Assembly (NCBI RefSeq): GCF_025602895.1
Contig: NW_026516545.1
Span: 1-24,345 of the forward strand
Length of the DNA: 24,345 nucleotides
DNA from: Polychytrium aggregatum
Lineage: Eukaryota > Chytridiomycota > Chytridiomycetes > Polychytriales
Direction: 5' to 3'
This document shows positions 5,949 to 24,150 of this stretch, piece after piece; the first letter of the stretch is position 1, and the number at the start of each line of letters is the position of its first letter. A program made the position numbers and the translations under genes. A model generated the notes under the pieces. It made no database searches and had not been told where the DNA came from. It was given only the letters and a program-made list of their open reading frames with translations.

Positions 5949-6257
5949 TGTAGGAGATGGTATCTCCGACGCTGTGCTGCGCGTACTGCGCGTACTGCGC
6001 GGCGCAGTGGGTCGTGACCTGTGCTGCGCTTTGCGTTTTCACGCACCGCAGGCAGGCCACCGCAGGGTATACCTGCGGGTTGCCCCCGTTCCCCCCGTTT
6101 GTCTGGAGTTCGGTTTTATCGTGAATAAACGTAAGTGCTCCCCGAGCTCACCCGTCCGCTAGAGTAGCCTAGCACCGCCCTGTTCTGCCCCGTCCTGTCT
6201 TGTCTTGTACCCCCTCCCTCCCCGTCTTGCCCCAACGTCCCAGTAGTGGACGTTACA
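5949..6257 (+). repeat. Element B1 3' LTR (309 bp)
   Basis: Starts TGTAGGAG and ends GACGTTACA (TGTA/TACA ends), nine bases after the pol stop; the purine-rich GTGTGGGAG between them is the polypurine tract. It is one base shorter than the other four B LTRs because a C run has six instead of seven bases (about 6091-6096). It carries AATAAA at 6124 followed one base later by GTAAGT. Confidence 0.95.
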
Positions 6258-7010: not shown

Positions 7011-7637
7011 ATGAGCAGCGCGACGAGCCCGCTGACCCTGAGTATTGATCTGGGATTCATCAATTGTGGCGTATGCTTCATATCCGAGGATCTCGAGATA
7101 CTCCATCTCAACCGCATCGACGGCGAGCCCCAGTTCATGGAGGCGTATTTCTTCTCCGGGATGGTCGACGGATCCGAGCCCGCCGAGCTCATGCAGCGCA
7201 CAACACGAGTGATCATCGAGAAGCCGCCAATCTTCAACGACCAGCTCTGCATTCTCGCCAATGACATATATGCTCTCTTCCAGCTCTGTGGATTCCATTA
7301 TGGCTACGGATACCGAGTCGAGTTCATCCACAGTATGCTCAAGCTGGACCAATGGACGAACTGGCCGACCGACACTCTTGGGCCCTTGGTGAAGGAGACG
7401 TATCAAGGCCGAAAGCAGTGCGGTGTCAAGCTCTGCTACCACCTCGGTCTCGGTCCCCTACTCGCCGACTTCCACAAGAAGGATGATGTATGTGACGCTA
7501 TATTGATGGCCCTTGTCGCATACGGCTACAAAGATGTCGAAGCTGCACGCAAGCAGCTGGCTCAGTCGAACCTGACGACATACGGGGAGTCGACGCCATC
7601 CAAGGACTCTGAGCCCTCTCCCCAAGGCGTCGAGTAA
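7011..7637 (+). CDS. Holliday junction resolvase, poxvirus A22-like (RuvC fold)
   Basis: 208 aa from the ATG at 7011; an upstream in-frame extension from 6957 is only low-complexity Ser codons without ATG. It shows the RuvC/RNase H-fold catalytic set in order: Asp13 in LSIDLGFINCGVCFIS, Glu70 in RVIIEKPPI, and the C-terminal acidic pair Asp158/Asp159 with Asp162 in KKDDVCDAILMAL. This is the pattern and length of the A22-type resolvases of poxviruses and other Nucleocytoviricota, which cut branched replication intermediates into unit genomes. All catalytic acids are present, so the gene looks intact. Its 3' end overlaps the convergent gene by 76 bp. A mitochondrial Cce1-type resolvase is the main alternative, but the neighbours favour a viral origin. 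Confidence 0.88.
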   Translation: MSSATSPLTLSIDLGFINCGVCFISEDLEILHLNRIDGEPQFMEAYFFSGMVDGSEPAELMQRTTRVIIEKPPIFNDQLCILANDIYALFQLCGFHYGYGYRVEFIHSMLKLDQWTNWPTDTLGPLVKETYQGRKQCGVKLCYHLGLGPLLADFHKKDDVCDAILMALVAYGYKDVEAARKQLAQSNLTTYGESTPSKDSEPSPQGVE

Positions 7638-8182
7638 CCGCTCGGGGCATCCGACTCGACCAAGAGCTCATCCAGCTCCTGATCAAACTTGTCGGCGCCC
7701 TTGTTGCGATTGATGCGCTTGCGCTTGAGGACATTGAAAATCTCAATAAAGTGGCGGCGGATGTAGGCAATCACCCTGTTCTGGATGCACCACTTGAAGA
7801 AGCAGAGCTGCCCGATGGTGGTCTCGAAGCTGACGGGCTGCTGGGTCTGCGGGTGGAGGGTGGTCATGGTGAAACGACCAAAACGACGGAAGGGGTCGAA
7901 TCGCTTCTTGCTGTAGGCTCGAAGCTGGGCCTTGTAGTTCTCGTACACGTAGAATATAGCACCGTCGACCCTGTAGCGAACGCTGTTGCGTCTGGAATAG
8001 TTCACAATGAACCAATCGAGCATGCGCAAGGAGATGCGGTCTTGGCGAAGAATGATGTAGATGACTTCGTTGAGGCGGCGTGGGTTCGCCCCGAAAAACT
8101 CGACAAGCGAGTGGGACAGGAAATTGGTCATTTCATCGTTGCCTTCAGGCGGCTTAACGGAGAGATCAAAATGGAAGCTCAT
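7562..8182 (-). CDS. Conserved giant-virus protein of unknown function
   Basis: 206 aa from the ATG at 8182; the frame is open further upstream but only from a TTG. The core reads NPRRLNEVIYIILRQDRIS, then LRMLDWFIVNYSRRNS, AYSKKRFDPFRRFGRFT and TIGQLCFFKWCIQNRVIAYI. I recognise this pattern as a family found across many Nucleocytoviricota, but I cannot recall a secure name or function. It is rich in Arg and aromatic residues, has no membrane segment, and has a polar C-terminal tail with acidic Ser-rich sequence. The 5' flank on its strand has two T-runs (reverse complements of A-runs at about 8192-8199 and 8232-8237). It overlaps the resolvase gene at its 3' end. Confidence 0.75.
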   Translation of the reverse strand: MSFHFDLSVKPPEGNDEMTNFLSHSLVEFFGANPRRLNEVIYIILRQDRISLRMLDWFIVNYSRRNSVRYRVDGAIFYVYENYKAQLRAYSKKRFDPFRRFGRFTMTTLHPQTQQPVSFETTIGQLCFFKWCIQNRVIAYIRRHFIEIFNVLKRKRINRNKGADKFDQELDELLVESDAPSGYSTPWGEGSESLDGVDSPYVVRFD

Positions 8183-8326
8183 CTTTCGACGACAGAAAAA
8201 AAGCTCGGAGTACTTGAACGAGTCTGGGTACAAAAAAGCGCGTGAAAGAGCGCGATGATTTTTTCGGCGGCTATGATCAACACTGTAGCCAAACGCTTAC
8301 TACAATTTCACCCGCGCGCTGCCAAC

Positions 8327-8782
8327 ATGAGCATACCCAACGGCCGATACGCACACTCCCGGATCCCCATCTACCCGCCACCCCTCGAGGAAGAGGCGGA
8401 GGAAGAATCGCCTGACCCCCCACCATGCCTGACCATCATCGGCAGCTACCCGCCATACCCTTACGAGACCTGGGCGGAGCTCGAAGAGAGTGACCCGTAC
8501 TACGAAGTGGCGCAGGCAGTCCCTGACTACCTCTCTGACATCCTCATGATAAAGTACCCGCACACACCTACGCCTGACACTGAACAATGCAATTGTTGGG
8601 GATCAATGTTGTATTCACATGATACGCGGAGTTGTTGGGTATGTCGCAGGTGGGAGGAGCACTATATCGATGTGTTATTGAAGCTCTATACCCATGCACC
8701 ATCGACGATCCCTTGGGAGGAGTTTGTAGGGACCGTCTTCATGCTGTCGAGTCACGAGTTGATCCCCATGCTCTGTGGGTGA
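8327..8782 (+). CDS. Hypothetical protein with paired cysteines
   Basis: 151 aa from the ATG at 8327; in-frame ATGs at 8255 and 8273 are possible but the added residues look unstructured. The N-terminal half is Pro/Glu-rich. Near residue 90 begins a Cys pattern CNC...SCWVC (CxC, about 13 residues, CxxC) that could bind one zinc ion. The remainder has a helical, aromatic-rich segment. I do not recognise the family. It lies head to head with the preceding minus-strand gene and is followed after 65 bp by the TBP-like gene on the same strand. Confidence 0.6.
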   Translation: MSIPNGRYAHSRIPIYPPPLEEEAEEESPDPPPCLTIIGSYPPYPYETWAELEESDPYYEVAQAVPDYLSDILMIKYPHTPTPDTEQCNCWGSMLYSHDTRSCWVCRRWEEHYIDVLLKLYTHAPSTIPWEEFVGTVFMLSSHELIPMLCG

Positions 8783-8795
8783 GCGCAGTCCTGGA

Positions 8796-8803
8796 TATAA
8801 AAG
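8796..8803 (+). promoter_or_regulatory. TATA box upstream of the TBP-like gene
   Basis: TATAAAAG lies 44 bp before the chosen ATG at 8848, a plausible core promoter distance. It is the clearest TATA element I see in the virus-type block, and it precedes the gene for a TBP-like factor. Confidence 0.5.
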
Positions 8804-8847
8804 CGACGTGGGATTCACTCTTCCGCTTCCCCCGGCATCGATCGAGA

Positions 8848-9990
8848 ATGACCATGACCACAGCACCAGAGCAGCCCATTGCGATTTCGACTTCGACGGC
8901 AACGATCAGCTTCGACACCGAGATCGATGTCACTGCCGTCGCCCGCCATATCGCTCTCGACGAGACCATTGTAGGTGTCAAGACCGCGATACCATCGATC
9001 CGCAGGAATATGATCTACAGCCGAGGCAAGGTGCGAATGAGCAAGTCGCGCAAGCAAGGGGCTCTCCCCATCAAGTACAGGAACAGGAACAGCCTAGCAC
9101 TCATGGCCGGTCAGGCCACGCTCTACGTGCAGCTCACCTCTGGACGCACGGTGGTCTGCAAGATCTTCAAGACCGGCACACTCCATATCACCGGCTGCAG
9201 AAGCATGGACGAGCATCGCTTTGTCGCCGAGGCGGTATGGGAGCGGCTTCGACCCATCGACACCGTGGAAACGATCGAGCTCGACGACGACTTACCGTAT
9301 AACGTGACCACGACCGAGGATCGCGCTCTCCTCGATAGCAGGGGTGATACGATCGGATACATCGACCCATCCAACAACCAAGTCTACCTCCGAAACCATC
9401 CTGTCCGAGTCGACTTGGACAGCAAGTGCTTCGTCTCGGCCGAAGACCTACGTGGACGCTCCCAGCTCTACAGCTTCACCGGGCATCACGTCGGCACGCA
9501 ATACAAAGAATCGAGACGACTCTGGATCGACGGCCGGGTGTCCTTGTATCCGCACCTGCCAGTATCGAGCGCCTCCTCCAATCCCAGAAAGTCCCTCTCG
9601 GTCCGACGCAAAGCCATACCACTCCAGAAGACGGTGGACACCTCGATGATCACCATCCATATGATCAGTGGCATGTTGAAGCTTGCACATGGTATCGATC
9701 GCGGTACCATGTTCAATGTCATGCTTGCCGATGGCATCAACGCCCGATACCACCCAGAGGTGCATGCTGCCGTGACGATGCGGGTTGCTATCCGCAGCGG
9801 ATTCTGTGGTCCTCGGTTGGAGATTGCAGACATCCTATGTCGCTGCAGAGGCCACTGTACATGCAGCAAATTCACTGCAATGATATATCGCTCCGGAACC
9901 GTGATCGTGACGGGGATGAAGCGCTTTGACCATCCCGCATTGATCGAGGAGTTCGTCTGTCGATACTGCCTTCAATTCTGTATCGCGTGA
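8848..9990 (+). CDS. TBP-like transcription factor, two divergent repeats
   Basis: 380 aa from the ATG at 8848; the frame is open to 8632 but the upstream part overlaps the preceding gene and the TATA box, so the later start is preferred. Two related units are visible, at about residues 19-136 and 262-378. Each ends in the TBP-type strand pattern: CKIFKTGTLHITGCRSMDE in the first, and MIYRSGTVIVTGMKRFD in the second. This two-fold layout is that of TATA-binding proteins and of the diverged TBP homologues of giant viruses. It is much longer than the roughly 180-residue core of cellular TBP because of insertions and a 125-residue linker. The second repeat holds an unusual Cys/His cluster (C331, C333, H336, C337, C339) that may bind metal. 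It likely directs viral promoter recognition. The stop overlaps the convergent gene by 19 bp. Confidence 0.8.
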   Translation: MTMTTAPEQPIAISTSTATISFDTEIDVTAVARHIALDETIVGVKTAIPSIRRNMIYSRGKVRMSKSRKQGALPIKYRNRNSLALMAGQATLYVQLTSGRTVVCKIFKTGTLHITGCRSMDEHRFVAEAVWERLRPIDTVETIELDDDLPYNVTTTEDRALLDSRGDTIGYIDPSNNQVYLRNHPVRVDLDSKCFVSAEDLRGRSQLYSFTGHHVGTQYKESRRLWIDGRVSLYPHLPVSSASSNPRKSLSVRRKAIPLQKTVDTSMITIHMISGMLKLAHGIDRGTMFNVMLADGINARYHPEVHAAVTMRVAIRSGFCGPRLEIADILCRCRGHCTCSKFTAMIYRSGTVIVTGMKRFDHPALIEEFVCRYCLQFCIA

Positions 9991-10633: not shown

Positions 10634-10943
10634 TGTAACGTCCACTACTGGGACGTTGGGGCAAGACGGGGAGGGAGGGGGTACAAGACAAGACAGGACG
10701 GGGCAGAACAGGGCGGTGCTAGGCTACTCTAGCGGACGGGTGAGCTCGGGGAGCACTTACGTTTATTCACGATAAAACCGAACTCCAGACAAACGGGGGG
10801 GAACGGGGGCAACCCGCAGGTATACCCTGCGGTGGCCTGCCTGCGGTGCGTGAAAACGCAAAGCGCAGCACAGGTCACGACCCACTGCGCCGCGCAGTAC
10901 GCGCAGTACGCGCAGCACAGCGTCGGAGATACCATCTCCTACA
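10634..10943 (-). repeat. Element B2 3' LTR (310 bp)
   Basis: Reverse-complement of the B LTR, bounded by TGTAACGTC on the left and CTCCTACA on the right. The pol stop lies nine bases further right. Confidence 0.95.
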
Positions 10944-13900: not shown

Positions 13901-14809
13901 GACCGGGACCGGCTTGGTCGGTGTCGTCGACCTCACGCACGACACAGAGGAACGACGTGTCCTTCTTGATCAGCCTCTTGAATTGCATGGCTGAGAGGAG
14001 AGGTGGCATGTTGGGTGAGGCCATGCCCTGCAGGACAATGTCAGGGCCAACACGGACAGTGCGGCCTTTCCAGTCGACGACTGGAGTCGGCTCGGCACGA
14101 GCAAGCCAGCTCATGCCGAGGATGGCATCGAACTTGGTGTCGATCACTTGGAACAACAGGACAGGATGGTACTTGGGATGGAGGGCCACTCGCAGGACCA
14201 CTTGGTGTGTGCACTGCTGCACACGATCGTCTGCAAGCGCCACACTCATCGGCGACTTCTTCTTGGTTGCATGTATGTTGAGCTCCTGGAGCAAGCGTCT
14301 GCTGACAAAGTTGCAGCTTGCTCCAGAGTCCACCATCATTCGGACGGTGTGACCTTGGACGGTGGCAGGGAGGTACAGCAGGGACTCTTCATGGTCCTCC
14401 TGCACAGCCTCCTGCACCATGACTTGACTTGGGGGAACGGGCGACACTTGGTCTTGGTTGGCTTCATCACGGCCACTCGGACATTTTGGATAGGGTTCGG
14501 CCATTGCGGGGGCCTGCGGCGTCAGCACGCCATTGCACACGACGTCCACGGCTTGCGGACACATGTCGGAAGCATCCGACACACACGACTTGACAGGGGT
14601 GAGGGCACAGGCGGTCCTGTCCCTCAAGGGTTCTTGATTTTCTTTTTTGTTTTGGTTTTCAATTTTGGTTTTCTCTTCACGTTCGTGGAGAGGCAGGCGG
14701 CTTGCGCCACCATGCACCTCTCGCACGACGCACAACACTTGGTTTGTTTCTCCTTCGGGGGAGGGGGCGAGGTGAACTTCCTCTGGAGACGCGTGGACTG
14801 CATTGAGCA
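10953..14809 (-). pseudogene. pol: Element B2 pol, main part, cut off by B3
   Basis: Covers the same protease, RT, RNase H, integrase and chromodomain as B3 pol. The open frame formally runs on to 14921, but residues beyond 14809 are antisense to the B3 5' LTR and are not part of the gene. The only amino-acid difference I found by eye from B1 and B3 is Phe to Leu near the end of integrase (HPVLHVSKL; a single base at 11288). The first codons of pol lie at 20279-20344. Until B3 inserted, this was probably an active copy. Confidence 0.93.
14805..14809 (+). repeat. Target site duplication of B3, left copy (GAGCA)
   Basis: GAGCA directly before the 5' LTR is repeated at 20279-20283 directly after the 3' LTR. 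Joined across, these bases restore the B2 sequence seen intact at 16103-16107 in B3 (as the complement). Confidence 0.96.
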
Positions 14810-15119
14810 TGTAGGAGATGGTATCTCCGACGCTGTGCTGCGCGTACTGCGCGTACTGCGCGGCGCAGTGGGTCGTGACCTGTGCTGCGCTTTGCGTTTT
14901 CACGCACCGCAGGCAGGCCACCGCAGGGTATACCTGCGGGTTGCCCCCGTTCCCCCCCGTTTGTCTGGAGTTCGGTTTTATCGTGAATAAACGTAAGTGC
15001 TCCCCGAGCTCACCCGTCCGCTAGAGTAGCCTAGCACCGCCCTGTTCTGCCCCGTCCTGTCTTGTCTTGTACCCCCTCCCTCCCCGTCTTGCCCCAACGT
15101 CCCAGTAGTGGACGTTACA
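14810..15119 (+). repeat. Element B3 5' LTR (310 bp)
   Basis: Bounded by TGTA and TACA. Three perfect inverted repeats stand out: GGAGAT-GGT-ATCTCC beginning four bases from the start, CCGCAGG-GTATA-CCTGCGG (14921-14939), and AACGTCC-CAGTAGT-GGACGTT ending three bases before the last base. A 9-bp tandem repeat TGCGCGTAC lies in U3. AATAAA is at 14986-14991. A T/G-rich stretch (CCTGTCTTGTCTTGT) after it could be the downstream polyadenylation element. I see no strong TATA box. Confidence 0.95.
14986..14991 (+). terminator. Poly(A) signal in element B LTR
   Basis: AATAAA in the middle of the LTR, followed by a GT-rich region about 60-80 bases on. The same signal in the 3' LTR (20145-20150) would end the transcript. 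One base after it begins the donor-like GTAAGT. Confidence 0.6.
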
Positions 15120-15172
15120 TGGTAGCATCGGAAATCCTCGTCTTGTTTTCGTCCTGTTTGTCCTCTTTCTAG
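15119..15172 (+). other. Upstream ORF across the LTR/leader junction
   Basis: An ATG formed by the last base of the LTR and the start of the primer binding site opens a 17-codon frame (MVASEILVLFSSCLSSF) that ends in TAG at 15170. It is in the same frame as gag, and the frame between that TAG and the gag ATG is open. It could dampen gag translation on unspliced RNA, or be removed by splicing. Confidence 0.35.
15120..15137 (+). other. Primer binding site of element B3
   Basis: TGGTAGCATCGGAAATCC starts at the first base after the LTR. TGG complements the CCA end of a tRNA. The next bases (T, then AGCATCG) would fit a tRNA with discriminator A and a 5' acceptor strand beginning A1-G2-C3, as in initiator tRNA-Met, which primes many Ty3 elements. 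The first eight bases match common initiator-type sites; beyond that I cannot confirm the tRNA. Confidence 0.6.
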
Positions 15173-15241
15173 ATCCTCAAGCTGGATCCCGCCTCTCTTG
15201 CCGACCGACTCTCCTCTCTGTCCCTGGAGCCTGCCCCTGCC

Positions 15242-16063
15242 ATGAGCAACCCCCGCCCACTTCCGGAAGCCTTCCTCAAGACCTTCCGTGCCCCAGTGTT
15301 TACTGGGAAGAGCCGCTCCTCCTCGGTGGAGGACTGGCTGCAGCAACTCGAGGACTACCTCGATGCTGCCCAAGTCGCCCCCACCCACCACATCGTCGCC
15401 GCCAAGCTCTGCTTAAAGGACCAGGCGTACCGTTGGTACCGCCGCCAAGGGTTCGACGAGCAGAGCGAAGGTGTGTTTGACGACTTCAAGGACCGCCTCC
15501 GTCGCCGCTTCGGCAGCCCCAATGCTGAACTCATTGCCCGTGACAAGCTATACTCTCTCGTGCAGCGTGGTTCTGTGACCCGCTACATCGAGGAGTTTGA
15601 AGACCTCTCCTCCCAGATTGAGGAGCTGGGCTCTGCTGATGCGATGTACCTCTTCCAGAAGGGCCTCAAGCCCAAGATCAGAGAGTACATCGCCAGCAAC
15701 CCTGATGCCCGCAAGTCCCTGGACGTGATGATGGACGTTGCCGAGAACCTCGACAACGTCCAGTACCATGGCCGCCAGTTCTACCCGCAGCTGGCAGGCG
15801 GCCATCGGTCTCATCACGTCCCAGCCCGTCCGCCTCGCCCGGCCCCGCCCGCAAGACCCATGCCTGAGCCCATGGACGTTGACGTCAACGCCATGGAGGC
15901 TCGTGGCCCTCCCCGCTCCCGGTTCCAGCAAGCTGCCACTGTCTCCCCCAAGGACAGACAGAAGCAGGAGGACCTCCGCCATGGTTCCTGCTTCTTCTGT
16001 CACCGACCGGGACACCAGGCCAAGGAGTGCCCCATGAAGTCGGGAAACGGCCGACCCTACTAG
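15242..16063 (+). CDS. gag: Element B3 Gag with CCHC zinc knuckle
   Basis: 273 aa. The central part (about residues 20-170) has the retrotransposon Gag pattern: [15 protein letters not shown], then [29 protein letters not shown], and [15 protein letters not shown]...[14 protein letters not shown] Pro/Arg-rich stretch follows. The C-terminal zinc knuckle is [14 protein letters not shown] (Cys250, Cys253, His258, Cys263), which binds RNA. Gag would assemble cytoplasmic particles. The ATG at 15242 is chosen as the first in frame after a stop, but an open run of 23 codons precedes it and might be translated if the leader is spliced and another start is used. The stop at 16061 lies inside the frameshift stem-loop. 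Confidence 0.95.
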
Positions 16064-19000
16064 GTGGCTCTGGAGCCCTAGTAGGAGACCAACGCCGTGG
16101 ATTGCTCAATGCAGTCCACGCGTCTCCAGAGGAAGTTCACCTCGCCCCCTCCCCCGAAGGAGAAACAAACCAAGTGTTGTGCGTCGTGCGAGAGGTGCAT
16201 GGTGGCGCAAGCCGCCTGCCTCTCCACGAACGTGAAGAGAAAACCAAAATTGAAAACCAAAACAAAAAAGAAAATCAAGAACCCTTGAGGGACAGGACCG
16301 CCTGTGCCCTCACCCCTGTCAAGTCGTGTGTGTCGGATGCTTCCGACATGTGTCCGCAAGCCGTGGACGTCGTGTGCAATGGCGTGCTGACGCCGCAGGC
16401 CCCCGCAATGGCCGAACCCTATCCAAAATGTCCGAGTGGCCGTGATGAAGCCAACCAAGACCAAGTGTCGCCCGTTCCCCCAAGTCAAGTCATGGTGCAG
16501 GAGGCTGTGCAGGAGGACCATGAAGAGTCCCTGCTGTACCTCCCTGCCACCGTCCAAGGTCACACCGTCCGAATGATGGTGGACTCTGGAGCAAGCTGCA
16601 ACTTTGTCAGCAGACGCTTGCTCCAGGAGCTCAACATACATGCAACCAAGAAGAAGTCGCCGATGAGTGTGGCGCTTGCAGACGATCGTGTGCAGCAGTG
16701 CACACACCAAGTGGTCCTGCGAGTGGCCCTCCATCCCAAGTACCATCCTGTCCTGTTGTTCCAAGTGATCGACACCAAGTTCGATGCCATCCTCGGCATG
16801 AGCTGGCTTGCTCGTGCCGAGCCGACTCCAGTCGTCGACTGGAAAGGCCGCACTGTCCGTGTTGGCCCTGACATTGTCCTGCAGGGCATGGCCTCACCCA
16901 ACATGCCACCTCTCCTCTCAGCCATGCAATTCAAGAGGCTGATCAAGAAGGACACGTCGTTCCTCTGTGTCGTGCGTGAGGTCGACGACACCGACCAAGC
17001 CGGTCCCGGTCCCCCGCCTGTGGTGACCAAGCTGCTCGACGAGTACAAGGACGTATTCCCCGACCAGTTGCCACAATGCCTGCCACCCCAACGCACCGTC
17101 GATCATCGCATCGACATCGAACCAGGCTCGTCGCCTCCGTCAAGACCGACGTACCAACTGTCGCTGACGGAGATGGACGAACTCAAGCGCCAGTTGGATG
17201 ACCTCCTCGCCCATGGGTTCATCCGCCCGAGCCAGTCACCGTATGGTGCACCAGTGCTCTTTGTCAAGAAGAAAGAAGGTGATCTCAGGATGTGCGTCGA
17301 CTATCGCGCACTAAACAAACAGACCATCAAGAACACCTACCCGTTGCCCAGGATCGACGAGTTGATGGATCGTCTGAGTGGAGCAAAGGTCTTTAGCAAG
17401 ATAGACCTCCGCTCAGGCTACCATCAGATCCGCATCCACGAGGATGATGTCCACAAGACCGCCTTCAGGACTCGCTACGGACTGTACGAGTTCCTAGTGC
17501 TGCCGTTCGGATTGACGAACGCACCTGCCACGTTCATGCAGCTGATGAACGATGTGTTCCGCCAAGAGCTCGACAACTCTGTCATCGTGTACCTGGATGA
17601 TATCCTTGTGTACAGCAAGGATGAAGCGACCCATGAAGGTCATGTCGCCCGCGTGCTGGCCAAGCTACGCGAGCACAAGTTGTATGCCAAACTGTCCAAG
17701 TGTGAGTTCTTCAAGAATCAAGTCCCGTTCCTGGGACACGTTGTCTCAGGAAGAGGAATCGAAGTCGACCCCGCCAAGGTCAAGTCTGTGGTCGAGTGGC
17801 CGCCGCTCGCATGCGTCTCTGACGTGCAGTCGTTTCTCGGTCTCGTCAACTACTACCGCCGATTCATCCCCGATCTGGCGCGCACTGCCGGTCCACTCAC
17901 AGACCTACTCCGCAAAGAGTGCCCCTTCGTGTGGGACCACCCACAACGCCAAGCGTTCGAGACCCTCAAGCACGCCTTGACGAACGCTCCTGTCCTCGCT
18001 GTGTTCGACCCGAACACGGATGTCTCCGTGCACACCGACGCCTCCGACTTTGCGGTGGGAGCTGTTTTGATGCAGGAGGGAAGGCCCGTTGCCTTCGAGT
18101 CGCGCAAACTGTCCCAACACGAGATCAACTATCCCGTGCACGAGAAGGAGCAGCTTGCGATCATCTACGCGCTGCAGAAGTTCCGAGTGTACCTCCACGG
18201 TACCGCCAAGCCCTTCAAGATTGTGACGGACCACCAGTCACTGCGTTACCTCGACACCAAGAAGAACCTGAGCCGACGCCAAGCGCGATGGATGGAGTTC
18301 CTCGCCGAGTACAACTACGAGGTTGTATACCAGAAAGGCAAACTCAATGTGGTGCCTGACGCACTGTCCCGACGCCCCGACTACCAATTGGCGTCACTGT
18401 ACGAGTCGACTGTCAGTGTCGACAACACGATGCTGGATGTTGTCCGAGACAACATCGCCAACGACAAACAGTTCGGAGAACTGTTCCGAAAGGTGTCTAA
18501 GCTCCCCAAGGACGACGAATCATCCGAGTACACAGTGCGTGATGGCCTGCTCCTCCTGAAGAAGGACAGCCGTGTCTGTGTGCCGGACATTCCGTCGTTG
18601 AAGACCAAGTTGCTCCAAGAGGTCCACGACTCGCCCCTCGCTGGACACTTTGGAGTCGAGAAGACATACGACCGACTGGCCAAAGTCGCATACTGGCCTG
18701 GAATGAAGCGCACCGTCGAGAAGTACATCGAGTCCTGCCATACCTGCAAGATGGTCAAGTCACGCACGACCCGAGAGCAAGGATTGCTGCAACCCCTGCC
18801 TGTTCCCGACCGCCCCTGGACCAGCATGTCCATGGATCTCATCACGCATCTACCGACGACCAAGTTGGACCACGATGCAATCGCTGTCTTTGTCGACAGG
18901 TTCAGCAAGATGGCACACTTTGTGCCGTGCCAGACGACATGCTCCGCGCCTGACCTTGCACTGCTGTTCTTCAAGCATGTGTTCAAGCACCACGGCCTCC

Positions 19001-19959
19001 CAAAGTCCATCGTCAGTGATCGAGACCCCCGATTCACCTCCTTGTTTTGGACAAGTCTGTTCGACCATCTCGGCACCAAGCTGAACATGTCAACCTCGCA
19101 CCACCAACAAACGGATGGACAGTCCGAGCGGACGATCCGCACCCTCGAGCAATACCTGAGGACATACGCCTCGACCAGCCAAGACGACTGGGACATACAG
19201 CTGAGTCATGCAGAGTTTGCATACAACACCGCCAAGTCGAGCACAACTGGCTTGAGCCCCTTTGAGGCGCTCTACGGATTCCAGCCTGATGTTCCCACCT
19301 CCTTGACACTGACCGAGTCCACGGCTGGATTGCCTCCCAAACCAAGTGCCTTTGTCAAAGATCATCAAGTCCGACACAAGATGATCGCCGACGCGCTCAC
19401 GGATGCGCAACAAGTGATGGCGAAGTACTACGACCGCCGACACCAGGATGTCTCCTTTGAAGTTGGAGACCTTGTCTACCTGGACGCCGACAACATCAAG
19501 GTCCCCGAAGCCCAGTCAAAGAAGTTGTTGCCCAAGTACCGAGGACCGTTCAAGATAGCGGCCCGACCCAGTCCCCTCAACTACCTGTTGGACTTGCCAC
19601 CTGGAAGCAAGCTCCATCCTGTCTTCCATGTGTCCAAGCTGCGTCGCCACACGACCCGCAGTCCAGCACAGTTCCCCGACGCCGACGAAGGTGTCCCGGA
19701 CGACGCACCACTGGAAGACGACCTCGGACAATACTATACTCAAGAATATGAAGTCGAAAGGATCGTGAGGCACAAGAAAGTGGCTGATGGGTCACTTCGG
19801 TTTTATGTCAAGTGGGTTGGTTACCCACACTCGGGCAACACATGGCAAACACTGGAGGACTTGTCCCATGCACCCGAGGAGCTGAGTAAATACGGTAAAC
19901 ACCTCGAGGAGCCCCAAATAAAGAGCACACGCAGGGCTCCTCGCAGGAAGCCTTCTTAA
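16027..19959 (+). CDS. pol: Element B3 Pol: protease, RT, RNase H, integrase, chromodomain
   Basis: The frame is -1 relative to gag; ribosomes should enter at the heptamer at 16042, so the GTG at 16027 is only the edge of the open frame. Numbered from 16027: aspartic protease with Asp186 in [11 protein letters not shown]; reverse transcriptase with YLDD at 522-525 and the [12 protein letters not shown] motif before it; RNase H with Asp671 in HTDASDF; integrase zinc region at about 868-910 and catalytic Asp937, Asp998 and Glu1034 (35 residues between the last two); chromodomain at about 1241-1292 ([18 protein letters not shown]). The tail is basic ([11 protein letters not shown]). All key residues are present and there are no stops. 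A Gag-Pol fusion would be packed into particles, then processed by the protease; integrase and chromodomain act in the nucleus. Confidence 0.96.
16042..16085 (+). promoter_or_regulatory. -1 programmed ribosomal frameshift signal, gag to pol
   Basis: Heptamer G GGA AAC at 16042-16048 in the gag frame follows the X XXY YYZ rule. A 7-nt spacer (16049-16055) is followed by a stem: CCTACTAG (16056-16063) pairs with CTAGTAGG (16078-16085), and inside it GGCT pairs with AGCC around a CTGG loop, with a two-base bulge. The gag TAG stop lies within the stem. Slipping back one base continues straight into pol. B2 has the same module at 20301-20344 on the minus strand. Confidence 0.9.
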
Positions 19960-19968
19960 GTGTGGGAG

Positions 19969-20278
19969 TGTAGGAGATGGTATCTCCGACGCTGTGCTGC
20001 GCGTACTGCGCGTACTGCGCGGCGCAGTGGGTCGTGACCTGTGCTGCGCTTTGCGTTTTCACGCACCGCAGGCAGGCCACCGCAGGGTATACCTGCGGGT
20101 TGCCCCCGTTCCCCCCCGTTTGTCTGGAGTTCGGTTTTATCGTGAATAAACGTAAGTGCTCCCCGAGCTCACCCGTCCGCTAGAGTAGCCTAGCACCGCC
20201 CTGTTCTGCCCCGTCCTGTCTTGTCTTGTACCCCCTCCCTCCCCGTCTTGCCCCAACGTCCCAGTAGTGGACGTTACA
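19969..20278 (+). repeat. Element B3 3' LTR (310 bp)
   Basis: Same borders and content as the 5' LTR (14810-15119), with no difference seen by eye. The purine-rich GTGTGGGAG between the pol stop and the LTR is the polypurine tract. Confidence 0.96.
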
Positions 20279-20283
20279 GAGCA
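20279..20283 (+). repeat. Target site duplication of B3, right copy (GAGCA)
   Basis: Matches 14805-14809 exactly; B2 sequence resumes here. Confidence 0.96.
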
Positions 20284-20344
20284 ATCCACGGCGTTGGTCT
20301 CCTACTAGGGCTCCAGAGCCACCTAGTAGGGTCGGCCGTTTCCC
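20279..20344 (-). pseudogene. Element B2 pol, first codons after the frameshift site
   Basis: This is the start of the B2 pol frame, from the slippery heptamer (20338-20344) to the B3 insertion point. Its continuation lies at 14809-10953. The frameshift stem-loop occupies 20301-20330. Confidence 0.85.
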
Positions 20345-21266: not shown

Positions 21267-21576
21267 TGTAACGTCCACTACTGGGACGTTGGGGCAAGAC
21301 GGGGAGGGAGGGGGTACAAGACAAGACAGGACGGGGCAGAACAGGGCGGTGCTAGGCTACTCTAGCGGACGGGTGAGCTCGGGGAGCACTTACGTTTATT
21401 CACGATAAAACCGAACTCCAGACAAACGGGGGGGAACGGGGGCAACCCGCAGGTATACCCTGCGGTGGCCTGCCTGCGGTGCGTGAAAACGCAAAGCGCA
21501 GCACAGGTCACGACCCACTGCGCCGCGCAGTACGCGCAGTACGCGCAGCACAGCGTCGGAGATACCATCTCCTACA
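21267..21576 (-). repeat. Element B2 5' LTR (310 bp)
   Basis: Reverse complement of the B LTR with TGTA/TACA ends; the primer binding site lies at 21249-21266 on the minus strand. The right border abuts the virus gene and the CTTGC duplication. Confidence 0.95.
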
Positions 21577-22997: not shown

Positions 22998-23471
22998 ATG
23001 GACATCGTAGCGAGCGACATTGCTGCTAATCTCATCTTTCTGATTCATGTGGGCGTTGTGGTCTTTGTGGTCACCGGTGCTTTTATGAGCGACCCGCTCA
23101 TTCTGGTGCTGCACATCATCGTCTGCCTGGGTATCATTGCGCACTGGGTGCTCGGGAACAGCGCCTGCTTCCTCACGATCCTCGAATGCTACCTCCGCGG
23201 CGTCAAACCAGACGACTCATTCGTCCACCGGATTGTCTCGCCGATCTACCACATCCGCGATGACCAAGTGCGACCCGTTGCCCGCACCATCACCGTGGTC
23301 ACCATGTTCATCAGCATCTGGCGATTCTATCGTTTCACGCAGGACCAGCCGGAGAATTGGGCGAAAATCAAGAACGATTTCCGGCGCGCGCTGAGGATGG
23401 GTCGCCAAAAACATCTCGACAACGCAGCAGACACACAACGTCAAGAACAGGATGGCCAGACGACTGAATGA
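22998..23471 (+). CDS. Conserved giant-virus membrane protein
   Basis: 157 aa from the ATG at 22998; the frame is open upstream but overlaps the divergent gene's promoter. Three hydrophobic segments are visible at about 8-29, 33-53 and 95-111. Between the second and third lies the motif HWVLGNSACFLTILECYLRG followed by FVHRIVSPIY. I recognise HW..N..C.LT..E..LRG and the later PIY as hallmarks of a small membrane protein shared by many giant viruses. Its membrane part resembles DUF2784-like proteins, but I hold that comparison loosely. The C-terminal 45 residues are charged and probably outside the membrane. It overlaps the next gene by 20 bp, suggesting joint expression. Confidence 0.75.
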   Translation: MDIVASDIAANLIFLIHVGVVVFVVTGAFMSDPLILVLHIIVCLGIIAHWVLGNSACFLTILECYLRGVKPDDSFVHRIVSPIYHIRDDQVRPVARTITVVTMFISIWRFYRFTQDQPENWAKIKNDFRRALRMGRQKHLDNAADTQRQEQDGQTTE

Positions 23472-24150
23472 TCCGTTCTGGCTCTATCAGCCATCGATTC
23501 TATGGGACCACAAAGAGGAGTTTCTTCCTTTGAAGCAACACAACCTCGAAGAGAAGCTCAATGCCATCACACGACTGATCATCTACGCGGCCGTCATTCT
23601 CTCAGCAGCCAACCGCAATCTCGGATACGCCAGTGCCGGGGTGATGGTGGTTCTGCTGGTCGTGGCGGTTTACAAAGTCGTCAAGGACGAAGAAGATACA
23701 GAGCAAGCCAAGAAGGCCAAGGCCACCCATGTGATATCAGATTCGGACCGCATCACAGCGAATCCTGTGAAATCATTGGTCCTCAACGAAAGCGACAAAA
23801 TCGAGAACTGCACGCTGCCCACGGAGCAGAACCCGCTTATGACATGGCGTCCATTCGACGACATGAACCAGCCGGCTCCGTGTTCGGGTCCGATCGTCGA
23901 TACCCGAGTGCATGATATCGTTTATAACTATCCAAACTGGAATGATCTCTACGACAAGAACGGGCGAGCCTTTGTCACCCCTGCATCTGCGACGCACATC
24001 ACCGATCGAGAAAAGTTCGCACAGTGGCTCTTTGGAGACATGGTCAGCTGCAAGGAAGACACGGTGAACTGCAGCCAGCTGCTCTATGAGGATCTGAAGC
24101 AGAGCAAACGGATGTGGCCTGAAAAAAAATCAGGGTACCGAGCAAAGTGA
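23452..24150 (+). CDS. Conserved giant-virus membrane protein (DUF5762-like)
   Basis: 232 aa. The order of features fits a family widespread in Nucleocytoviricota that I associate, from memory, with DUF5762: an N-terminal DPFWLYQPSILW, then NLEEKLNAITRLIIYAAVIL, hydrophobic segments at about 42-52 and 60-77, NPLMTWRPF with a Cys-containing stretch, and a C-terminal block NGRAFVTPASATHITDREKF and AQWLFGDMVSCKED. The paired Cys residues in the C-terminal half could form disulfides, as in virion membrane proteins. Function is unknown; a role in the virion membrane or entry/fusion machinery is only a guess. The start overlaps the previous gene by 20 bp in another frame. An A8 run at 24122-24129 lies near the 3' end. 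Confidence 0.78.
   Translation: MARRLNDPFWLYQPSILWDHKEEFLPLKQHNLEEKLNAITRLIIYAAVILSAANRNLGYASAGVMVVLLVVAVYKVVKDEEDTEQAKKAKATHVISDSDRITANPVKSLVLNESDKIENCTLPTEQNPLMTWRPFDDMNQPAPCSGPIVDTRVHDIVYNYPNWNDLYDKNGRAFVTPASATHITDREKFAQWLFGDMVSCKEDTVNCSQLLYEDLKQSKRMWPEKKSGYRAK

Follow-up and report, generated by a model that had tools for sequence, protein, structure and literature searches.

A putative -1 ribosomal frameshift signal with a predicted three-stem pseudoknot at the gag-pol junction of a Ty3/gypsy chromovirus in Polychytrium aggregatum

Element B and its gag-pol junction

Here, we analyse the gag-pol junction of element B, a retrotransposon of the chytrid Polychytrium aggregatum that carries a putative programmed -1 ribosomal frameshift signal. 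The window, i.e., the whole stretch of DNA analysed, comprises 24,345 nucleotides (contig NW_026516545.1, forward strand) and is contig 272 of the searched genome assembly GCF_025602895.1 (64.7 Mb in 418 contigs). Element B is bounded by two long terminal repeats (LTRs), which show no difference over 300 nt compared directly, and by a target-site duplication (Table 1). Profile searches of its pol open reading frame (ORF) recovered the order protease, reverse transcriptase (RT), RNase H, integrase, with a chromodomain last (PF00385, at the integrase C terminus, pol residues 1241-1291, E 2.4e-13). Of the integrase parts, the zinc-binding and Tf2-1 SH3 domains scored above cut-off and the rve core below its cut-off. 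The top solved-structure match of pol is the yeast Ty3 polyprotein (7q5b), over residues 336-1214. Judged by chromodomain, domain order, and LTRs with target duplication, the sequence identifies B as a Ty3/gypsy chromovirus. No relative of its gag was confirmed among IMG/VR contigs, and none of its pol among IMG/VR and GTDB contigs.

A preliminary description of this DNA had placed a frameshift module at 16042-16085, consisting of GGGAAAC in the correct phase, a 7-nt spacer and an interrupted stem whose 8-bp outer arm swallows the gag stop codon. Phase and spacer were borne out. The heptamer follows directly on a CCHC knuckle of gag (read by eye), has the X XXY YYZ form in the zero frame, and leads into a pol ORF in the -1 frame; after the spacer comes a stem for which we find covariation (see below), and stimulatory structures are described as following a spacer of 2-8 nt (PMC5175198, available sections). 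The outer arm, CCTACTAG (16056-16063) pairing with CTAGTAGG (16078-16085), does enclose the stop, and its perfect run is 9 bp rather than 8 (16056-16064 with 16077-16085). Phase, spacer and this stem, hereafter stem 1, can be taken as established from the sequence and its covariation. The module is as observed, and the predicted structure probably reaches further, to 16131.

Element B is nested in a minus-strand copy of the same element, which has its LTR ends at 10634 and 21576. The insertion point lies in the hairpin that we call stem 3 below, so that in the interrupted copy stem 3 is split, the 3' arm of the predicted stem 2 is displaced and stem 1 is intact. Counting places with at most 3 mismatches over its 44 nt, the module occurs 355 times in the genome, 353 times exactly, compared with none for a reversed control; the 100 exact copies among the matches listed are spread over many contigs. 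Because 353 of the 355 copies are exact, a recent amplification of B is suggested, in a burst that is very recent or ongoing, and for the same reason there is no covariation signal within B itself.

Singly, the parts of the site are common; their combination at 16042 is unusual. GGGAAAC occurs four times in the window (3.98 expected), and the isolated 47-nt hairpin has ordinary stability, equalled in 23 of 200 shuffles (z -1.25). The first 100 nt downstream of the heptamer reach a stability that none of 200 shuffles attained (z -3.98). Counting both strands, the window has 37 canonical XXXYYYZ heptamers. Four of them precede a stem of at least 8 bp, and at two, both of the B type, the stem lies at a distance of 3-12 nt and is 9 bp or longer; an 8-bp helix from the loop to downstream sequence is added at 16042 only (1/37). 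On a grid of positions 5 nt apart, stems of 9 bp or longer were present at 82 of 9678 places, and together with such a helix at two, possibly the B site itself.

Table 1. Coordinates of element B, its junction and repeated features of the window
Feature	Position	Strand	Remarks
Element B	14810-20278	+	Ty3/gypsy chromovirus
Target-site duplication, left copy	14805-14809	+	GAGCA
5' LTR	14810-15119	+	310 bp; starts TGTAGGAG, ends GTTACA
gag ORF	15242-16063	+	273 aa; Retrotrans_gag / Ty3_capsid match
pol ORF	16027-19959	+	-1 frame relative to gag; shift entry at 16042
Slippery heptamer	16042-16048	+	GGGAAAC, read G GGA AAC in gag phase
Spacer	16049-16055	+	7 nt
Stem 1, 5' arm	16056-16064	+	CCTACTAGG; holds gag stop
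gag stop	16061-16063	+	TAG; fifth codon after heptamer, within stem 1
Stem 2 (predicted), 5' arm	16068-16075	+	CTCTGGAG; in loop of stem 1
Stem 1, 3' arm	16077-16085	+	CCTAGTAGG
Second gag-frame stop	16079-16081	+	TAG
Stem 3 (predicted)	16092-16123	+	13-bp hairpin; one bulged C, one G-U pair
Stem 2 (predicted), 3' arm	16124-16131	+	CTCCAGAG
3' LTR	19969-20278	+	310 bp
Target-site duplication, right copy	20279-20283	+	GAGCA
Second GGGAAAC copy	20338-20344	-	in element interrupted by B
9-bp tandem repeat	5977-6001, 14838-14862, 19997-20021, 10891-10915, 21524-21548

Stem 1 in related families of the genome

Related families were reached by two Pfam gag searches, in which 150 of 1163 and 150 of 817 candidates were scored, and they are thus a sample. 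Junctions were read at 32 gag loci (31 distinct places, L066 being the same as L048), and 24 of the 32 have an in-phase heptamer before the gag stop. Nine families in addition to B, F1 to F9, possess such a heptamer: GGGAAAC in six, GGGTTTT in two and GGGAAAA in one. Besides the F1 junctions read individually, the gag searches gave 28 more F1-type loci; two letter variants of the F1 module were found, in 31 loci altogether. Each of the nine families has one or more copies with a pol match in the -1 frame behind the heptamer; in F5 this is only a weak protease match in L053 (19.9% identity). After the heptamers of L043, L045 and L070 no pol match was found, and in several family copies the -1 frame is closed early. 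The module of B had been thought to stand out among chromoviruses. Ten families sampled in this genome, B included, carry such a site, which suggests that retroviral-type recoding is the common arrangement, not an exception, among the chromoviruses sampled here.

Loci where no in-phase heptamer was seen include L054 (gag truncated), L060 (decayed), L069 (no knuckle) and L050, where the gag frame is broken upstream and the GGGTTTT module itself is present; L072 ends ahead of the gag stop. A further case, L048/L066, has a gag-like ORF and no pol was found. In L048 this ORF (832-2140) encodes 436 aa and includes a CCHC motif resembling a knuckle; the sequence fetched downstream of it gave no pol match, and TCTGGAAATGG stands near the ORF end at the place of the relatives' heptamer. 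This locus is possibly a gag gene kept by the host, or an old remnant.

Relationships were read from two unrooted trees, one for gag and one for a piece of RT, built with families of this genome only and, for RT, leaving out F1, whose piece is too short. Both trees place B with F9, which has a long branch, away from the other families, and both join F2 to F3; the gag tree also joins F1 with F8 and, less firmly, F4 to F7. In local alignments with the other families, B has 45-59% identical residues in RT and 26-35% in gag.

For the structural comparison, the heptamer and the following 40 nt were aligned without gaps for B, F1-F8 and two rows of a further family, F10 (11 rows), with offsets counted from the base after the heptamer and registers 25-61 compared. 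All nine of B and F1-F8 have a stem at offset sum 43, with runs of 6 to 11 bp, and in none of them does any other register in this range hold a run of 6. The stem of F9 lies at offset sum 61 with a longer loop, and F9 was left out of the covariation count. Across the 77 cells of the seven shared pairs, 97.4% are paired, and 24 cells are changed on both sides, compared with a shuffle mean of 7.9 (0 of 500 shuffles as high). The covariation score is 0.834 in the stem register and 0.04-0.17 in slid registers. Compensatory changes in diverged relatives, named in the preliminary description as a check on the stem, are hence present. Within subgroups, B with F2, F3 and F10 keeps eight of eight pairs in all five rows, six of them double-changed, mostly between B and the rest; F1 with F8 has three double changes in 15 pairs (11/500 shuffles as high); and F4-F7 alone, with one double change (244/500), are uninformative. 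Retention of 97.4% pairing despite double changes in six of the seven stem 1 pairs, together with conservation of the heptamer phase in ten families, suggests that the module is still under selection.

The gag stop is close to the heptamer throughout, with 1 to 11 sense codons between them. In B, F1 and F2 it shares bases with the 5' arm of the longest perfect run; in F3 it is adjacent to the foot of the stem, and in F4-F9 the stem-loop contains it. Since its place varies in this way, closeness of the stop is general here and a stop inside the arm is not.

The predicted pseudoknot and competing readings

Downstream of stem 1 of B, two further helices are predicted. Stem 2 would join eight bases of the stem 1 loop to downstream sequence, and stem 3 would be a hairpin in the stretch that separates the 3' arm of stem 1 from that of stem 2, which gives the layout of a three-stem pseudoknot. 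The 8-bp stem 2 was equalled in 36 of 2000 shuffles, and none of 200 shuffles was as stable as the hairpin region 16086-16123 (z -5.63). Separate stem energies are -13.5 (stem 1), -20.7 (stem 3) and -12.4 kcal/mol (stem 2 duplex), and an inner hairpin nested in stem 1 would gain 3.0 kcal/mol. With the separate stems summed by hand, the pseudoknot comes out ahead of the fold with the nested inner arm as long as the penalty for forming a pseudoknot stays under about 9 kcal/mol. The inner arm of the interrupted stem proposed initially competes with stem 2 and is probably not part of the active fold, so that this earlier structure appears incomplete.

Helices of 6-7 bp from overlapping loop positions are predicted in F1 (66/2000 shuffles as good), F2 (71), F3 (161) and F8 (158). 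B, F2, F3 and one F10 form (F10a) share the place of the 5' arm and six core pairs with one double change, and a second form (F10b) has one of the six pairs broken; F1 and F8 keep five of five pairs, again with one double change. The linker from stem 1 to the stem 2 3' arm measures 38 nt in B as against 11-16 nt in F1, F2, F3 and F8. In F4-F7 a loop GGGCC matches GGCCC (5-6 bp) at 94-106 nt, a lead that emerged after the search was widened. Stem 2 is accordingly best described as supported but not proven. The prediction of stem 3 is made for B, and a role for this hairpin in the signal is what the layout would imply.

It is attractive to propose that the junction of B is a programmed -1 frameshift signal of a chromovirus in which a three-stem pseudoknot at 16056-16131 forms the block, and we assign this reading a probability of about 0.88. 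Ribosomes translating gag would meet G GGA AAC while the pseudoknot, made up of the 9-bp stem 1 with the stop, the 8-bp stem 2 and the stem 3 hairpin between them, blocks the mRNA entry channel. The majority would keep the frame, open stem 1 and release Gag on terminating at the TAG that this stem contains. The remaining minority would slip back by one base, with pairing shifting from GGA to GGG in the P site and from AAC to AAA in the A site, and would produce Gag-Pol; that shifting occurs, and how often, is deduced here from the layout of the site. Ribosomes terminating at the stop might let the structure refold for the next ribosome, by analogy with a proposal for SARS-CoV-2.

Several observations weigh against this reading. 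All families compared are from one genome. Family F10 keeps stems 1 and 2 with the heptamer GGATTTT in place of GGGTTTT in all three copies found (L049, L057, L075; the pol of L049 matches in pieces only). F5 has stronger pol matches in the 0 frame (L053) and in the +1 frame (L073), and because of these matches the two copies are taken to be broken or mixed with other elements. The shuffles behind the covariation values ignore relatedness and the register was found on the same sequences; moreover, the number of pairs with a double change is reached by 14 of 500 shuffles, and the number of further pair types is matched by 115 of 500. Folds of the 60 nt that follow the heptamer show no exceptional stability in B (z 0.09), F6 (0.25), F8 (-1.16) or F7 (-1.41). 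Perfect stems as long as that of F7 occur at 50 of 406 nearby positions, and stems of equal length at 17 of 406 for F8, 12 of 406 for F6 and 6 of 406 for B. Within 60 nt, stem 2 taken alone is not significant in F3 (161/2000), F8 (158), F7 (192), F9 (596), F4 (996), F5 (1072) and F6 (1132).

The last point bears on the alternative that the stimulator is simply the interrupted hairpin 16056-16085, with stems 2 and 3 incidental. Hairpins alone are able to stimulate -1 shifts, according to the available part of PMC5175198; the minimum free energy fold contains the nested inner arm with its gain of about 3 kcal/mol, and in F4-F7 and F9 no helix from the loop to downstream sequence stands out within 60 nt. 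Against it stand the length of stem 2 in B and its rarity among shuffles, the use of overlapping loop positions with double changes in B, F2, F3, F10, F1 and F8, and the GGGCC/GGCCC match of F4-F7, which starts from the same loop place with a longer linker and was found in the widened search. We therefore consider a hairpin-only stimulator unlikely.

Much less probable is that pol is made separately, from a spliced transcript or an internal start, and that the heptamer is a relic. The first ATG of the open pol frame, codon 108 at 16348, precedes the protease match (from residue 173), so the full enzyme set could start there; the double changes in stem 1 with pairing kept and the heptamer phase kept in ten families, counting B, are difficult to reconcile with a relic. 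The sole GT...AG pair across the gag stop noted by eye spans 18 nt, which is too short for an intron. Production of Gag-Pol by readthrough has practically no standing: some readthrough signals do have the stop inside a stem, yet the difference in frame between gag and pol and the further gag-frame TAG at 16079-16081 rule out simple readthrough into pol. We give equally little credence to an assembly or chance artefact, which the long identical inverted copies in the window could suggest, since B and the interrupted copy each have a perfect 5-bp target duplication (GAGCA and CTTGC), the exact module recurs 353 times and nine other families have differing module sequences.

Relation to known systems and other features of the window

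The kind of mechanism proposed for B, i.e., -1 gag/pol frameshifting of LTR retrotransposons, is already known. The 2003 survey of LTR retrotransposon frameshift sites is reportedly that of Gao et al., RNA 9:1422. As summarised in a 2016 review, 28 of 51 animal LTR elements surveyed in 2003 have pol in the -1 frame, many with classical heptamers suitably placed as in B, and fungal LTR elements are less skewed to -1 pol than animal ones; in its available sections, neither a three-stem pseudoknot nor a fixed stem register is described for the surveyed elements (PMC5009743). Chromodomain elements with pol in the -1 frame have been published as well, so the arrangement of B is less notable than had been supposed: the gypsy elements VdLTRE2-4 of Verticillium dahliae have gag followed by a pol with chromodomain in -1, and, unlike for B, the accessible part of that paper gives no slippery site or RNA structure (PMC3441728). 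Two choanoflagellate elements, chromoviruses by name, use 6-bp slippage motifs (PMC6875170, available part), and a plant survey adds nothing on recoding sites in its available part (PMC6317226). The description of the module as retroviral in type is supported by SRV-1, for which in vitro work on the gag-pro signal used constructs with an identical G GGA AAC heptamer, a 7-nt spacer and a pseudoknot; the SRV-1 pseudoknot is of the two-stem kind and belongs to a retrovirus (PMC5175198, excerpts).

The likeness of B to the frameshift element of SARS-CoV-2 is one of layout and not of membership, as the coronavirus has another slippery site and sequence and is an unrelated replicon. In the SARS-CoV-2 element, stems 1 and 2 are accompanied by a third stem, which lies between their arms. 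A search of 15900-16300 against Rfam returned no family at gathering score and four weak matches to other families, and hence no match to a coronavirus frameshift family. As in B, the 0-frame stop of the SARS-CoV-2 ORF1a/1b element lies five codons downstream and is part of stem 1; less shifting is seen when this stop is moved 15 nt further or removed, and ribosomes that terminate at it are proposed to give the structure a chance to re-form ahead of the following ribosome (PMC8168617, available sections). The three-stem form of B and the fixed stem register seem to be new, a modest claim. Yeast Ty3 frameshifts in the +1 direction. According to the available sections of PMC5009743, its frameshifting differs markedly in mechanism from that of Ty1 and is regulated by the carbon source, which sets it apart from B.

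We lean slightly towards a scenario in which a chromovirus lineage reached, independently of coronaviruses, a three-stem pseudoknot whose stem 1 contains the terminating stop as the fifth codon; a hairpin may have been gained in the linker of a shorter pseudoknot of the type predicted for other families here. Because nine of ten families keep the distance between stem axis and heptamer (F9 differs), selection would in this scenario hold the position of the stem and not its sequence. The ten families of this one genome form a natural series: apart from F9, they are nearly uniform in heptamer type, spacer and stem register, and they differ in stem sequence, loop, linker and stop position. Such a series lets one ask which geometric features a -1 signal needs, and if a nearby stop in the structure, as in the refolding proposal for a coronavirus, is a general design.

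Beyond element B, the window holds parts of further retroelements. Positions 62-2605 comprise an integrase-chromodomain ORF of another chromovirus, followed by a repeat common to many of the fetched loci. This stretch joins at 2604 a 5'-truncated copy of B pol (to 5939), the end and LTR of which match those of B at 99.7% over 359 bp with one gap. The retroelements are flanked by three ORFs, at 23452-24150 (+), 8632-9990 (+) and 7562-8233 (-). Of their proteins, one matches the minor capsid protein P9 of PBCV-1 (Pfam P9_TM, 7.1e-15; PDB 6ncl E, 3.9e-10), one the TATA-binding protein (Pfam 4.4e-10; PDB only 0.0069) and one DUF7197. IMG/VR scans with two of the three confirmed no relative. The retroelements possibly landed in endogenous sequence of giant-virus origin. 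Each of the five LTRs in the window contains the 9-bp tandem repeat CTGCGCGTA in 2.8 copies (Table 1).

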